Source: Medakamo hakoo (taxonomy: Eukaryota; Chlorophyta; Trebouxiophyceae; Coccomyxaceae). From it: 64,000 bases of DNA. Of this stretch, positions 43,898-50,849 are shown one piece after another. Numbering within the stretch: position 1 is the first letter of the stretch; the number at the start of each line of letters is the position of its first letter. Both the position numbers and the translations under genes were made by a program. The DNA lies in contig CP089457.1 in assembly GCA_026636295.1 (NCBI GenBank), positions 186,001 to 250,000 of the forward strand, written 5' to 3'. The notes under the pieces were generated by a model, which was not told where the DNA came from, searched no databases, and was given only the letters and a program-made list of their open reading frames with translations.

Positions 43898-44509
43898 TTA
43901 CGAGGCGCCGCCGACCGACTTGACGGCGCACACCATCTCCTCGCCCATGGCCTTCAGCACGGACACGACGAGCTCCTTGCCGTCCTCGAAGTCTTTCTTG
44001 ATCTGGTCGGCCAGCTTTTCCGCGTCGTCCGTGCCCTTGGGCAGGCCCAGGTCGTCCTTCGTGTTGCCGGCCTCGTCCATCAGGGACAGGAAGCCGTCGT
44101 CCGACACGTCCAGCAGGGAGTACTCCTGGCGGTTGACGTGCGGGACGTCGCAGTTGTGCGACGAGGGCGTCAGGTCCTCGTACTTTTTGCCGGTGAAGAT
44201 GTCGATGGCGACAAAGTGGCACTTGGCGTGGCCGTGCTTGCCGGTCTTGGAGGTGGAGACGTCGGCGACTTTGCAGGGGCGGCCTTTGATGACGAGGAAA
44301 CCGTTTTTGCTGTGGGGGGGAAGGGGGCGGGGGTGGATGGTGAGAGGGGTGGGTGGTCGGCGGTCGGGGAGCGGCGGGCGTGCGCGCGCGCGCGCTTTTC
44401 TCGCCTCAACTCACCGGATCGTGCCGGCCTGCTGCGGGTACGTCAGGGACGCGCCGGCGTCGGCCGACTCGAAGTGGACGTCGTGCTGTTCACCGTCGGA
44501 GTCAGACAT
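43898..44509 (-). CDS. EIF5A: Translation initiation factor eIF5A
   Basis: Promotes peptide-bond formation at stalling sequences and helps termination. It is active only after hypusine modification. Exons 44509-44415 and 44309-43898 join in phase 2 to give 168 aa. The protein starts MSDSDGEQHDVHFESADAGA, continues TYPQQAGTIR/KNGFLVIKGRPC, and carries the hypusine loop STSKTGKHGHAK with the modifiable Lys between Gly and His. CHFVAIDIFTGKKYEDL and SSHNCDVPHVNR follow. Similarity to land-plant eIF5A is very high, which supports a green-lineage host. The length is typical. The gene diverges from galactokinase. Confidence 0.96.
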
Positions 44510-44998
44510 GGTGTTGCGTTTCTGTTGTGTGTTTGGGCGGCGGCGGAAAGGAGTCGGGCGTGAGAACGGCCGATTAAAGGGTGGAAGGGTGGAAAGAAGG
44601 GCTCGATTGCAGCGTGGACACGGCCCGCACGGATGCTCCGTCGGCACGCAGGTATGCGCCTGCCTTTCGTCTATCCGGTTGGGTGAGTTTGGCAGCGTGC
44701 GAGTGGCCGATCAGGGAGGACAGGGCGGCGGCCTGAGCACGGCCGGGCCCGGCGGCTCGCGTAGCAGCGGGCCGCGCAAACGCCCCGTCCGCGCCCACCC
44801 GCTCCACGGCCGCCCCATTTTTTGATCTGGGGCTGTGGCGAGCCGATCCGGGCGCCGCGTGGGGATCGGCGCCGGGGAGCGAGACAAGCAGCGCACCTTG
44901 TTTTTTGTTTCCTTTCTCCTTGAGGGTGAGAGAGAACAGACTTGTGGGGAGGTGAGCGCGCTCCACTCGTTCACTCTCTCTCTTTCCCCAACGAAACC
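44510..44998. promoter_or_regulatory. Divergent promoter region, eIF5A and galactokinase
   Basis: 489 bp between the two ATGs. A CT-rich block (44960-44990) precedes galactokinase. No TATA box or named motif and no additional gene are evident. Confidence 0.45.
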
Positions 44999-47743
44999 AT
45001 GGCCGCCGACACGCTCGCCCCGTCCCGCACGGCGTCGGGACTGGTCGTCGAAGTTCACCCTCCAAAAGGCGACCAGGCGTCCCAGCCCGTCCCCGTCGTC
45101 GACGACCTGGCGGCCGTGTACGTGGATGGTGCGTGTGACCGATGGCGGTTGTTGAGGTCGCCGGACAAGGAGGCCGGCGTGTCACCCGGTCCGCGGCCTT
45201 TCCTGGGCCCGTGGCCCATGCAGTTGACGCGCTGAGTGTGTTCAGACCCCCTGCCCGGCGCGACGCATTGATAGGGCGGAAGCGTGGCGTCGCGCGGCGT
45301 CGCGTGAAAAACACAGGCGCTCCTCCCTCACGCATGCCCTCCTCCTCCTCTCAACATTCAGACCCCGCCGCCGCCACCGCCCGCTTCGCCGCCCTGACGT
45401 CCGCCTTTGAGTCCGAGTACGGGACCAAGCCCGACTGCTATGCCCGGTCGCCAGGTGAGGAGGAGGAAGGTCGTGGTGGTGGCGGGACAGCGCGGGCAGG
45501 GAAAGGAAAAGGCAACAGCGCGCGCGCGCCAGCTCTGCGGTCGCGCCCCCCCTTCCCCCACAACCCTCACTCACACCCCCGCCTCCCACTCCGCGCTGCT
45601 GCCCCCAGGCCGGGTCAACCTCATCGGCGAGCACATCGACTACGAGGGCTACGCCGTCCTGCCCATGGCCATCGCGCCCGACACAGCCATCGCCATTCGC
45701 AAAGTCCCCAATGGCTCGTCGGGCGGTGGGCAGGGCGGCGCGGTCCTGCGCCTGGCGAACGTCGACCCGGCCCGCTACCCGTCGTCGACGTTCCCCATCG
45801 ACCCGGCCCAGGCCGTGGACACCGCCCACCACACCTGGGGCAACTACTTTGTGTGCGCGTACAAGGGCGTGTTCGAGTGGGCCAAGTCGTCGGGCGTGGA
45901 GCTGGAGCCGGCCGGGTTGGAGGTGATGGTGCATGGCACCGTTCCCCTAGGTGAGACCGATTTTTTTTTCATTTTTTTGTGGCGTGCTTGAGGCGTGCTC
46001 CGAGGGCAGGACGGGTGGGAGCCTGTCCGGGCGTGTGCGCGGGTGTCTGCGACACCCCATCACTCCCCCACGCGCGGTGGGCGGGAGGGGGAGCCCGGGG
46101 ATGGGAGAGACAACACGCGCGAGAGAGAAAGCAGCCACGCCCACGCCCGCCACACACCTCCACTCCAACCCACCCAGGCTCCGGCCTGTCCTCGTCCGCT
46201 GCCCTGGTGTGCGCGTCCATGCTGGCCATCCTGGGCGCGCACGGCGTGTCGGCGTCGCAAGGGGTGCGTTTCGTGTTTCTTCATACTTTTTCCATGTTTC
46301 CATCCACCATTTTTTCCCGCAGGCTCGGGCCTGTCCTCCTCGTCCGCCTTTGTGTGCGCGGCCGCGCTGGCCGTGCTGGCGGCGCACGGGGTGGCGGCGC
46401 CGCAGGCGGTAAATGCATTTGGATGGATGGGTGGAGCGGGGTGGTGTGGTGTGCGACCGGGAAGACAGGAGGGCCGGCCGGGGGTTGAGCCCGCGGCGTC
46501 CGCGTATCTTGGGCACCGCCGCGGGTGTTCACACGTCCTCGCCCGCCTGGAGCGCGTGCACGGCTGCCGGGCGTCGAGGCCCGTGCCACCACCCACCCAC
46601 CAACGACTCTCACGCTTGTCCCATCCCATCCATCCATCCAAAAAAAAAAAAACACAGGACGTCGCGACCTTTGCCGCCTCCTGCGAAAAGTACGTCGGCA
46701 CGGAGTCGGGCGGCATGGACCAGGCCATCAGCATCATGGGCCAGCCGGGCACGGCCAAGCTGGTGTCGTTCAACCCCGTGCGCGCGGCCGACGTGTCCCT
46801 CCCGCCCGACGCTGTGTTTGTGATCGCCAACTCACTCGCCGTCTCCAAAAAGGCGGAGACCGCGGACATCCACTACAACCTGCGCGTCGTGGAATGCCGG
46901 GTCGCGTCCGCGGCGTTGGGCCGGGCCCTCATGGGCGGCGACGCGGCCGAACCGTCCACCGTGGCGGGCCTGACCACGCTGAAGGCCGTCGAACCGCTCA
47001 TTGAGGCCAACCCTCAGTTCGGCCCGGGCGTCGCGGGCAAGCTGGCCGCGGTGGCGTCCCTGCTGGCGGAAGGCCCGTACGACCGGGAGGCCGTCGAAGC
47101 CGCGGTCGGCATGCCGTTGACGCAACTGCTGGCCGGCGCGCCGGCCCAGCTGCGCGCGGCGGACGCGGCGCTGGCGGCCGGGCGCGGCCTTGCGCTCCGC
47201 GACCGGGCCGCGCACGTGTACGCGGAAGCCGAGCGCGTCCACGCCTTCCGCGCGGTGGCGGCGGGCGAGGGCGGCGGGGACGCCCTGGTGGGCTTGGGCC
47301 GCTTGATGGACGAGTCTCAGGCGTCGTGCCGGTGCGTTTTGGTTGGTGAGGGACGGGGAAAAGGATGGATGGGATGGAGGGTCGGAGGTGGGGGGTGGGG
47401 GTGGGGGGGGGCGTCTTTTTTTCTCATCCTCGCACTCACCACCCTCCCCTGCCAAAACAATCATCCCTACAGGGACCTGTACGACTGCTCCTGCCCGGAG
47501 CTGGACGAGCTGGTGGCCGCGGCCAAAGCGGCTGGCGCGCTGGGCGCGCGGCTGACGGGCGCAGGGTGGGGCGGGTGCACTGTCTCCCTGGTGCGGGCGG
47601 GGAGCGAGGCCGCCTTCGTCCAAGCCCTCAAAGACGCGTTCTACGCGAAACGAGTCGCGGACGGGGTGGTAAGCGAGGCGGACCTGGACGCCACGGTCTT
47701 TGCGACCCGGCCGGCCGCGGGCGGGGCGGTGCTGAAGCTTTGA
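44999..47743 (+). CDS. GALK: Galactokinase with two alternative homologous exons for the GLSSS motif
   Basis: Phosphorylates galactose at C1 with ATP (GHMP kinase family). Constant exons are 44999-45128, 45362-45454, 45609-45950, 46658-47331 and 47473-47743. Between the third and fourth lie two candidates for one position: exon A 46178-46263 and exon B 46323-46408, each 86 nt, entering in phase 1 and leaving in phase 0. Using exactly one gives 531 aa. Motif I is GRVNLIGEHIDYEGYAVLP. Motif II is GSGLSSSAALVC (A) or GSGLSSSSAFVC (B). The later core is GTESGGMDQAISIMG and DLYDCSCPELDEL, and motif III is RLTGAGWGGCTVSLV. The sequence resembles plant galactokinase more than bacterial GalK. Including both exons or neither shifts the frame. 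Confidence 0.93.
46178..46263 (+). other. Galactokinase alternative exon A
   Basis: This exon encodes GSGLSSSAALVCAS and on to VSASQG. The acceptor is CACCCAG and the donor GTGCGT. It is about 69 percent identical at protein level (20 of 29 residues, my count) to exon B and has the same length and phases. Confidence 0.85.
46323..46408 (+). other. Galactokinase alternative exon B
   Basis: This exon encodes GSGLSSSSAFVCAA and on to VAAPQA. The acceptor is TTTTTTCCCGCAG and the donor GTAAAT. It is separated from exon A by a T-rich 59-nt intron (46264-46322). Confidence 0.85.
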
Positions 47744-48063: not shown

Positions 48064-50849
48064 ATGGAACTGACGCCACCGCTACTCTTGGCGGTCCTGG
48101 CCGTGGCCGCAGTCGTGGCCGCCCTCATCGCCCGGGCCGCCCGGTCCAAGGGCGCCCTCCTCCTGTCCGCCAAGAGCGGAAAAGCCGGCGCCGAAGTGAC
48201 GGCCGAGGCCGCGCCGGACAACCGGCCGCGCGTTTCGATCCTGTTTGGCACGCAGACGGGCACGGCCGAACGGTTCTCCAAGCAGGTGAGAGGCGGGGAT
48301 GGGGTCGATTGGGTCGTGTGGGGCGGGGGCGAGTCAATGCGCGGCCGAGCGTCGGCGCGCCGCGCGGCGTGGCGGTCGTGACGGCTGGGTAGCCGGGTTG
48401 GGGCGGGGAACGCCCCGCGTCCCTGGCTTTTTACCCTTGCCAGGCTGAGAGCGAGAACTGGAGCCTCCGCCGCGCCCGGAAAATACGGCCGCCGCCCGGT
48501 CGCCATTGACGTGTCGGCCCCGCGAACAGCGCAAGAGAAAGGCTGCGAGAAAATTGGCCTGGAGGGCCTGCGGCGCAAGGGAACATAAAAAGCCGCGCGC
48601 AGCTCCGTCAAACCCTCACACACACCGCCAAAAAACCCACACAGCTGCGGAGTGAGATCTTGGAACGCTATGGCGAAGGCAACGCGGTCGACGTCATCGA
48701 CTGCGAAGAGGTACGTCGGCGCGGGGGGGGGGGGAGTGTGAGCGCGGCCGCACGCCGCGAGAGATTGCGCCGTGGCTGCCCCTCCTGCGGGCCGCCGATT
48801 CCCTCGAACCAGCCGCGTTCCGACATGTTCCTGTCCGTCAGGCTGGGTCTTGAGCCCTTGGCCAGGAGGGTGGTACAGGAAAAAACAGAGCGCGCAGTGG
48901 GCGCTCGACGGGTCAAAAAAAAAGCTCGGAAACAGCGGGCCCTCGCCCTGCGACGGCGCAGGCGCGCCCGGGCGCTCCCTCGCCGCTCCACCCTCTCTTC
49001 TCCCTCACCACCCACACCACCCCCTCCCCCCGCCGCCCTCCCTGCGCAACAAAAACAGTACGACGCCCCCACCCGCCTGCCCACCGCCCGCCTCGTCCTC
49101 TTCTTAGTCGCCACGTACGGCGACGGCGAGCCCACCGACAACGCGGCGGACCTGTACAACTGGGCCCTGCGCGCGGCGGGCGAGGCCGGGCGCGGGAGCG
49201 TGGGCGAAGACTCGGACGGCGGCGCCGCGGCCGCGCCGGCGAAACCCCTCCTGTCCGGCGTCCACTTCGGCGTCTTTGGCTTGGGCAACAAGCAGTACGA
49301 ACACTTTTGCGCCGTCGGCAAGCGCCTCGACACGGCCCTGGCGACGCTGGGCGCCAAGCGCGTCGTGCGCCGGGGCGACGGCGACGACGACGACGACATC
49401 GAAGCCGACTTCGACGCCTGGCGCACTGACCTGTGGGCGGCCCTGGACGCCCTGGACGGCGTCATTGCCAAACCGGGCGCCGGCGCGGTGGCGGGCGGGG
49501 CCGCCAAGACGCCCGCCGACGTGCCGGCGTTTGAGCTGACGCCCGCCGAAGCGGGCGTCGCGTCCAACCCCCTACCCCTCGGCCGCCGCTCCTCCGCGGG
49601 CGGCGGCGCCCTGAACGCGCACCACACCCACACCCCGCCGTTCATTGCGACCGTGCTGGCCCGCCGCGAGCTGCACGGCCCGGCGTCGGACCGGTCGTGC
49701 GTGCACGTGGAGCTGGACGTCGGCGCCGCGCCGCCGATGGGCGCCGTCCACGCGGGCGATGAGACCGGGCCGCCGTACGTGGCGGGCGACCACGTCGCGA
49801 TTCACCCTACCAACGACCCGGCGCTGGTCGAGCGTGTGGCCGGCCTGTTGGGCGTGGGGTCGGCGGAGGAGCTGGACCGCGTCGTCATCTTTTCCGTCCC
49901 CGCCGGCAAGGAGGGCGACCTCGGCGCGCTGCCCGCGCGCGCGCCCGTGTCTGTGCGCGACGCCCTGACCCGGTTCGCCGACTTGACGGGCCCCGTCTCC
50001 AAGCCGGCCATGCTCAACTTTGCGGCCTTTGCGCCGCCGGGCTCGGAAGAAGCGGCCAAGCTGGGGGCGTTGCTGGCGCCCGACGCGGCGGCGGACTACA
50101 AGGCCTGGGTCGCGCACTCGCGCTGCCTTGCCGAAGTGCTGGAAGAATTCCCGGCCACGGCCGCCTCCATCCCACTGGGCGCGCTCTTCGGCGGCATCGC
50201 CCAGCCGCTACAAGCCCGGTTCTACTCCATTTCCTCCGGCCCCGCCGCCCACCCGGACGCGGTGCACGTGACGGCGGCGGTCGTGCGCGAGCGCACGGCG
50301 ACGGGGCGCGCGCACGCGGGCCCCGCGTCGGCGTCCACCCTCGCGTCCGCGGCCGTGGGCGACAAGGTCGCCTGCTTCATCCGGCACTCCACCTTCCGGC
50401 TGCCCACGGACCCGGGCGCGCCCATTGTCATGGTCGGGCCGGGCACCGGCCTGGCGCCGTTCCGCGGGTTCCTGCAGGAGCGGGCGGCCATGGTGAAGGC
50501 CGGCAAGAAGCTGGGCCCGGCCATCCTGTTTTTCGGGTGCCGGTCGGCCAAGGCCGACTACATTTACGAGGCGGAGCTGGCGGCCTACCTGGAGTGCGGC
50601 GCGCTGACGGCCCTGCACGTCGCCTTCTCGCGGGACGGCCCCAAGAAGGTGTACGTCCAACACCACCTGGAACGGCAGGCGGCGGCCGTGTCGGCCGCGC
50701 TGGCCCACCCGCGCGCGTGCGTGTACGTGTGCGGCGACGCCAAGGCCATGGCCAAGGACGTGCACGGCGCGCTGGCGGCCGCGCTGGGCGGGGAGGCGTC
50801 GCTGAAGGCGCTGGCGGATGAGGGGCGGTACCAGAAGGACGTGTGGTGA
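48064..50849 (+). CDS. CPR: NADPH-cytochrome P450 reductase
   Basis: Passes electrons from NADPH through FAD and FMN to P450s on the endoplasmic reticulum. Exons 48064-48285, 48645-48710 and 49059-50849 join in phase 0 to give 692 aa. The N-terminal membrane anchor is MELTPPLLLAVLAVAAVVAA. FMN-binding motifs follow: SILFGTQTGTAERFSKQ, VATYGDGEPTDNAADLYNW and FGVFGLGNKQYEHF. The FAD site is ARFYSISSGP, with the flavin-facing region GDKVACFIRHSTFRLP. NADPH binding is shown by VMVGPGTGLAPFRGFLQER, ILFFGCRSAKADYIYEAEL and VYVCGDAKAMAKDVHG. The chain ends RYQKDVW with the terminal Trp that stacks on FAD. The second intron (48711-49058) is a multiple of three and free of stops. Confidence 0.96.

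Follow-up and report, generated by a model that had tools for sequence, protein, structure and literature searches.

Two tandem-duplicated, probably mutually exclusive exons for the phosphate-binding segment of a GALK2-like galactokinase in Medakamo hakoo

A gene for a GALK2-like galactokinase of Medakamo hakoo contains two adjacent exons, a and b, which from their sequences are probably tandem-duplicated, mutually exclusive exons, with one entering each mRNA and two enzymes resulting. Each mRNA would take either a or b, and the two predicted enzymes, both of 531 aa, would differ at nine residues, which lie around motif II, the ATP-phosphate loop, and in the helix after it. Mutually exclusive use, as put forward in a preliminary description of this DNA, is supported by two intact, apparently constrained copies, by frame incompatibility, and by one relative that has both exons; it is also the best explanation for two intact, frame-incompatible, constrained-looking copies that are both kept in that relative.

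The window is a stretch of 64,000 nt, C10:186001-250000, in a genome of 15,638,232 bases on 16 contigs; the GC content over 260 kb of contig C10 is 73.6%. M. hakoo is a trebouxiophyte. In passages of its description (PMC9871001), the M. hakoo assembly is given as 15.8 Mbp in 18 contigs, two of them organellar, with 72.7% GC, and the strings "intron" and "galact" each occur zero times in the main text. The same source lists a public RNA-seq run of 100-bp paired reads, SRR19165385, and a proteome of the alga has been published (JPST001585). In the spliced model, the galactokinase gene occupies positions 44999-47743 of the window on the plus strand. Exon 1 (44999-45128, with the ATG), exon 2 (45362-45454), exon 3 (45609-45950, ending in phase 1 as CTA G/gtgaga), exon 5 after the pair (46658-47331, beginning DVATF and entered in phase 0), and the last exon with the stop (exon 6, 47473-47743) were given by both the spliced model and the gene finder, all on the plus strand. 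Between exons 3 and 5 lie alternative exon a (46178-46263, plus strand), which encodes GSGLSSSAALVCASMLAILGAHGVSASQG, and alternative exon b (46323-46408, plus strand), which encodes GSGLSSSSAFVCAAALAVLAAHGVAAPQA. Both are supported by coding score and splice-site ranks, together with an out-of-frame match to exon a and a match of 25/29 identical residues to exon b in the relative P0122. The introns are, in order, 233, 154, 227, 59 (between a and b), 249, and 141 nt long.

The gene finder was given splice weights set by hand and then trained itself on 260 kb, this gene included, with an outcome of 102 genes and 137 well-flanked introns. It recovered the whole gene and gave the exact limits of exon a; the reading frame allows it only one exon of the pair. 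The introns between b and exon 5 (249 nt) and between exons 5 and 6 (141 nt) are multiples of three and free of stops, and within 45995-47743 a single frame of 582 aa extends uninterrupted through exon b to the end of the gene. Two relatives also read through, P0039 across both introns and P0122 across the b-5 intron. The neighboring genes, judged by eye, are eIF5A-like (43910-44510, minus strand) and NADPH-cytochrome P450 reductase-like (48064-50849, plus strand).

In a domain search, PF10509, PF00288, and PF08544 were all above the cut-off in both isoforms, so that the galactose-binding signature and the GHMP N and GHMP C domains are present with either exon. The GHMP N domain scored 61.1 bits with exon a and 63.8 bits with exon b, and both motif II (GLSSS) and the downstream GTESGGMDQ were found in the encoded galactokinase. 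The closest solved structure to isoform b was 2a2c, an N-acetylgalactosamine kinase (E = 1.9e-90), which we take to be human GALK2. The encoded enzyme is predicted to be GALK2-like; "galactokinase" is used here as the family name, for a putative activity on galactose or GalNAc. A genome-wide search with the GHMP-kinase domain had matches at L003, L004, and L005 (contigs C4, C11, and C3, respectively); it had none at the present gene, in which the domain is divided among exons.

The preliminary description had reported two exons of 86 nt that share their phases (phase 1 in, phase 0 out), are separated by an intron of 59 nt, and encode peptides with 20 of 29 residues identical; all of this was reproduced. 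At the DNA level, the two copies are 79% identical over 91 nt, and they form the first-listed direct repeat in the 6.5 kb searched. The base differences number 19 in 87 and are spread 7/3/9 over the three codon positions. As had also been reported, including both exons or neither breaks the frame: with a or b alone the product is 531 aa with no inner stop, whereas a and b together lead to a stop after 300 residues, and skipping both leads to a stop after 303. The ungapped match between a and b scored 48, compared to a maximum of 14 in 100 shuffles. For the adjoining introns, the observed similarity scores were reached by 35, 6, and 8 of 100 shuffles, and no clear similarity above shuffles was found between the introns flanking a and b. 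Intron DNA copied along with the exon appears to have drifted past clear recognition, whereas the two exons have not. A scan of 260 kb of contig C10 listed seven non-overlapping similar pairs that are coding in both copies, some of them the same stretch at several offsets; the a/b pair was the only one of the seven whose copies have an AG edge and a GT edge in common. The two exons are neighbors and homologous and agree in length and in phase, as in mutually exclusive exons formed by tandem duplication, and inclusion of both or neither is non-productive.

Exon a scored 11.6 nats and exon b 9.3 nats as coding sequence in the correct phase, and the other two phases scored -12 or lower. A score of 9.3 was reached, in any phase, by one of 1,930 AG..GT segments of 80-92 nt on the plus strand outside predicted exons. 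We simulated neutral decay of each copy. With 19 substitutions, none of 20,000 runs reached the score of the other copy in either direction; with 10 substitutions, the other copy's score was reached in 5 of 20,000 runs starting from a and in none of 20,000 starting from b. The comparison of synonymous and non-synonymous change proposed in the preliminary description gave, by a rough count, a dN/dS of 0.49 between a and b, which suggests mild constraint and would be weak evidence if taken alone. We scored both peptides against a homologue set of 158 of 169 protein records, those with both motifs, from which P0122 was left out. The family scores were 49.1 for a and 46.6 for b (the 5th and 50th percentiles of the homologues are 38.8 and 58.5), and the five positions that are invariant in 158/158 homologues are the same in a and b. 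Both copies thus appear constrained as protein in the window; in P0122, the protein of exon a is deduced from an out-of-frame translation.

The splice sites of the two exons were ranked among the 137 introns. Exon a ranks 0.78 for its acceptor and 0.39 for its donor, and exon b 0.06 and 0.16, respectively; the acceptor of the constitutive exon 3 also ranks 0.06. These ranks bear on an alternative in which only exon a is used, and b is an old copy in the process of being lost that is rarely or never spliced in. Exon b is indeed weaker, with a summed site and coding score of 9.0 against 19.9 for a; the gene finder, limited to one of the pair, chooses a; and the acceptor of b in P0122 looks non-consensus. 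However, exon b retains its length, its frame, the invariant motif residues, and its coding signature, and the rarity with which a decays neutrally to a b-like score (0/20,000 at 19 substitutions and 5/20,000 at 10) argues against a copy on its way out, as does the conservation of b in P0122. We consider loss of b unlikely, though it is the strongest of the alternatives.

A search for the duplicated exon in related genes, also proposed in the preliminary description, succeeded in P0122, whereas the other six close ORFs start too far downstream. P0122 is a JGI-sourced ORF on an 11.1-kb contig and is 83.7% identical to the window's gene over 227 aligned positions of exon 5. When exon a of the window is translated out of frame and on into its donor, the first 21 residues of P0122 match the result at 20 of 21 positions. 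Next follows a phenylalanine-rich stretch, which corresponds to about 69 nt of intron, of which 28%-59% is T, depending on codon choice. P0122 then encodes GSGLSSSSAFVCAAALAVCAAHGLDPPQA, which is 25/29 identical to exon b, and this exon is separated from the next by about 114 nt of intron. The exon a protein of P0122 is deduced from the out-of-frame ORF translation, which fixes many first and third codon positions of its exon a and few second positions. Among the third codon positions that can be read, 12/13 are unchanged compared to 7.1 expected (P about 0.002), in a test in which synonymous codons were redrawn by usage and silent sites were assumed to be saturated; the position fixed by the GTG start was left out, and one invariable codon (ATG) was counted in. 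In both lineages, the third positions of this exon look exceptionally well kept, which hints at exonic splicing signals. A weak point of the P0122 model is that its frame holds together only with an exon b acceptor ending in AAG.

The other near relatives, P0039, P0066, P0125, P0126, P0129, and P0136, are 76-85% identical in exon 5. The ORFs start inside the exon before exon 5 in P0039 and P0066, in the intron in P0126 and P0129, and inside exon 5 itself in P0125 and P0136; P0122 is the only one of the seven close genomic ORFs that can show the pair, because these six start too far downstream. Among the best 120 of 6,179 matches, the best full-length protein match was P0002, with 59% identity, and no transcript-like protein of this very lineage was found. 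The best-matching named relatives among the matches listed were Raphidocelis, Botryococcus, Apatococcus, and Myrmecia; Auxenochlorella was 50% identical. Three candidate exon a frames in other relatives were examined and gave no match. Scans of viral contigs and prokaryote genomes with the neighboring exon gave no useful relative, one locus being a bacterial match of 32%.

The intron between a and b (46264-46322, plus strand) is 59 nt long and T-rich, and was characterized by its base composition and a branch-point scan. For comparison, we used 248 introns predicted in 260 kb of C10, of which 137 had good flanks; all of the intron statistics derive from the predictions of one self-trained gene finder. 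Two introns with good flanks, of 48 and 66 nt, fell below 93 nt; they have weak sites and lengths divisible by three, and were set aside. The remaining 135 were all at least 93 nt long, compared to 59 nt for the a-b intron. Predicted introns of 66 nt or less numbered 11 of 248, nine of them poorly flanked. The practical minimum intron length in C10:1-260000 is near 90 nt. The a-b intron is 46% T, the highest of the set, compared to 16% pooled over the 135 others, and its GC content of 42% is the lowest of the set; the mean for introns of this genome is 69% GC, and their 3' ends are rich in C and A. The corresponding intron of P0122 is at least 28% T, compared to 24% for the 95th percentile of the last 59 nt of other introns.

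The inferred branch-point consensus is about CTCAC, and in a histogram without a distance floor, counts of CTCAC/T peak 30-59 nt before the acceptor. In the motif scan, which examined nothing closer than 17 nt to the acceptor, the median distance from branch point to acceptor was 42 nt. In the 81 best-scored introns, the 5th percentile of this distance was 26 nt, and the smallest distance between donor and branch point was 52 nt; over all 135 introns, weak ones included, the smallest was 35 nt. Within the 59-nt intron, distances of 52 and 50 nt from the donor would leave a branch point 7 and 9 nt, respectively, from the acceptor, and a branch point 26 nt from the acceptor would be 33 nt from the donor. 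The motif scan found no strong branch-point motif in the a-b intron. Its candidates, A46285 and A46283, are weak, lie 22 and 20 nt from the exon a donor, and scored 0.41 (the best score) and -1.2, poor values compared to the 5th percentile of 0.83. A branch point less than about 50 nt from the upstream donor is near-forced by the length of 59 nt, and its exact site is a guess. None of the donors gtgaga, gtgcgt, and gtaaat has the usual form of a U12-type donor, which one exon would carry under U2/U12 incompatibility. Passages of PMC7969005 propose about 50 nt as the threshold for simultaneous assembly. In a human survey of mutually exclusive clusters, as given in part of PMC5740500, close branch points accounted for 9% and frame-breaking lengths for 60%; both would act on the a/b pair. 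The argument from steric exclusion made in the preliminary description is strengthened by these intron-length and branch-point statistics, with the branch point itself a candidate.

A second alternative is that the pair serves mainly to control expression: mRNAs with both exons or neither would be frameshifted and destroyed, and the two protein forms would be equivalent. Both off-pattern products do have early stops, and at 8/9 differing positions, both copies carry residues common in the family. However, the 59-nt intron argues against an efficient join of a to b, and if skipping were the control, a second coding copy would be unnecessary and the protein sequence of b would not be preserved, which makes this alternative very unlikely. 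That the duplication is an assembly or annotation artefact absent from the genome, or the gene a pseudogene, can practically be dismissed, since a and b differ at 19/87 bases and are not a repeated read, the published M. hakoo assembly has a stated coverage of 246.8x (in passages of PMC9871001), the other galactokinase exons are intact, and P0122 shares the same exon layout.

Under mutually exclusive use, there would be a physical barrier to joining a to b, since 59 nt leave no room for a donor and a branch point spaced as is usual in this genome, and those a-b joins that escape would be frameshifted. Steric exclusion and frameshift likely form a lock, by analogy with vertebrate OGDH. Exon a is probably the default because of its stronger splice sites, and exon b probably depends on the atypical T-richness of the a-b intron for its polypyrimidine tract. 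As a guess, this tract may be a regulatory site, at which a U-binding splicing factor could act.

The residues that differ between a and b are at segment positions 8, 10, 14, 15, 18, 20, 25, 27, and 29. The preliminary description had stressed a difference inside the active site. Residues beside the SSS do differ; the emphasis is toned down here, as such variants are ordinary among the 158 homologues. Position 8 is A in 139, S in 18, and T in one homologue, and position 10 is F in 88, I in 39, and L in 31. The A/S difference at position 8 and L/F/I at position 10 look like ordinary family variation. At eight of the nine differing positions, the residues of both copies are among the five commonest in the homologues; the exception is the A that b carries at position 25, which falls outside the five commonest residues shown. 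The structure 2a2c has SSSSA like b, and 2aj4, presumably yeast Gal1, has SSSAA like a. Both isoforms are expected to be active. They may differ in kinetics or substrate, and tuning of one enzyme appears more likely than an on/off change; our guess is that exon b probably tunes kinetics or substrate preference. More tentatively, and with somewhat less than even confidence, the phosphate-binding segment may be switched in a regulated manner, which would give two kinetically distinct kinases according to condition, under a lock of close branch point and U-rich tract that arose independently of that in OGDH.

Yeast Gal1 and Gal3, and human GALK1 and GALK2, belong to the same family, but each of these is encoded by a gene of its own. 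It is motif II that sets Gal1 apart from the kinase-dead sensor Gal3, and in both algal forms the GLSSS motif is complete. The product of xol-1 is GHMP-like. Human ketohexokinase is, like the algal enzyme, a sugar kinase, and its forms KHK-A and KHK-C arise from the tandem exons 3A and 3C; in contrast to the algal case, it has a ribokinase-like and not a GHMP fold, and the swapped segment is not the phosphate loop. The KHK isozymes are described in part of PMC11332825 as alternatively spliced and different in their kinetics, and the alternative splicing of xol-1, in passages of PMC7787662, as non-productive and not an exon exchange.

Closer in arrangement is cyn23 of Volvox carteri, whose exons 4 and 5 are mutually exclusive, both having been confirmed by RT-PCR (passages of PMC4378016). 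As in the present case, the host is a green alga and the two exons are adjacent and identical in length, which is not a multiple of three (106 nt in cyn23); the isoforms are equal in length, those of cyn23 differing at 13 residues, some of them in the ligand site. However, cyn23 encodes a cyclophilin in a multicellular alga, and the section of that report on exclusive exons gives no mechanism through intron length or branch points. Exons 4a and 4b of vertebrate OGDH are likewise in a metabolic enzyme, derive from an exon duplication (ancient in OGDH), and are separated by a short intron; according to passages of PMC7969005, branch points 25-41 nt from the upstream donor enforce exclusive splicing there, and a uridine-rich tract is present. 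In OGDH the branch points were mapped by experiment, whereas here they are guessed from sequence, and the OGDH intron measures 118-131 nt in birds and mammals compared to 59 nt here (PMC7969005, in part).

Mutually exclusive exons in green algae were already known from cyn23, and the kind of system is a known one. Among the matches listed for literature on galactokinase or GHMP-kinase splicing and on exclusive exons of green algae, no title names a galactokinase with such an exon exchange. As far as these searches of partial sources go, the gene, the position in the active site, the host with its minimal genome, and the well-delimited steric arrangement are new.

Mutually exclusive exons have been studied mostly in animals. 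M. hakoo is single-celled and has one of the smallest genomes of the green lineage; a pair of this kind in a unicellular alga with a minimal genome, apparently kept in a second lineage, points to splicing that such an organism still pays for. The two forms would also provide a clean two-form enzyme for testing the effects of variation in motif II. If the reading is true, exclusion through a T-rich intron that leaves no space for a normal branch point would offer a compact, testable parallel to OGDH outside the animals.
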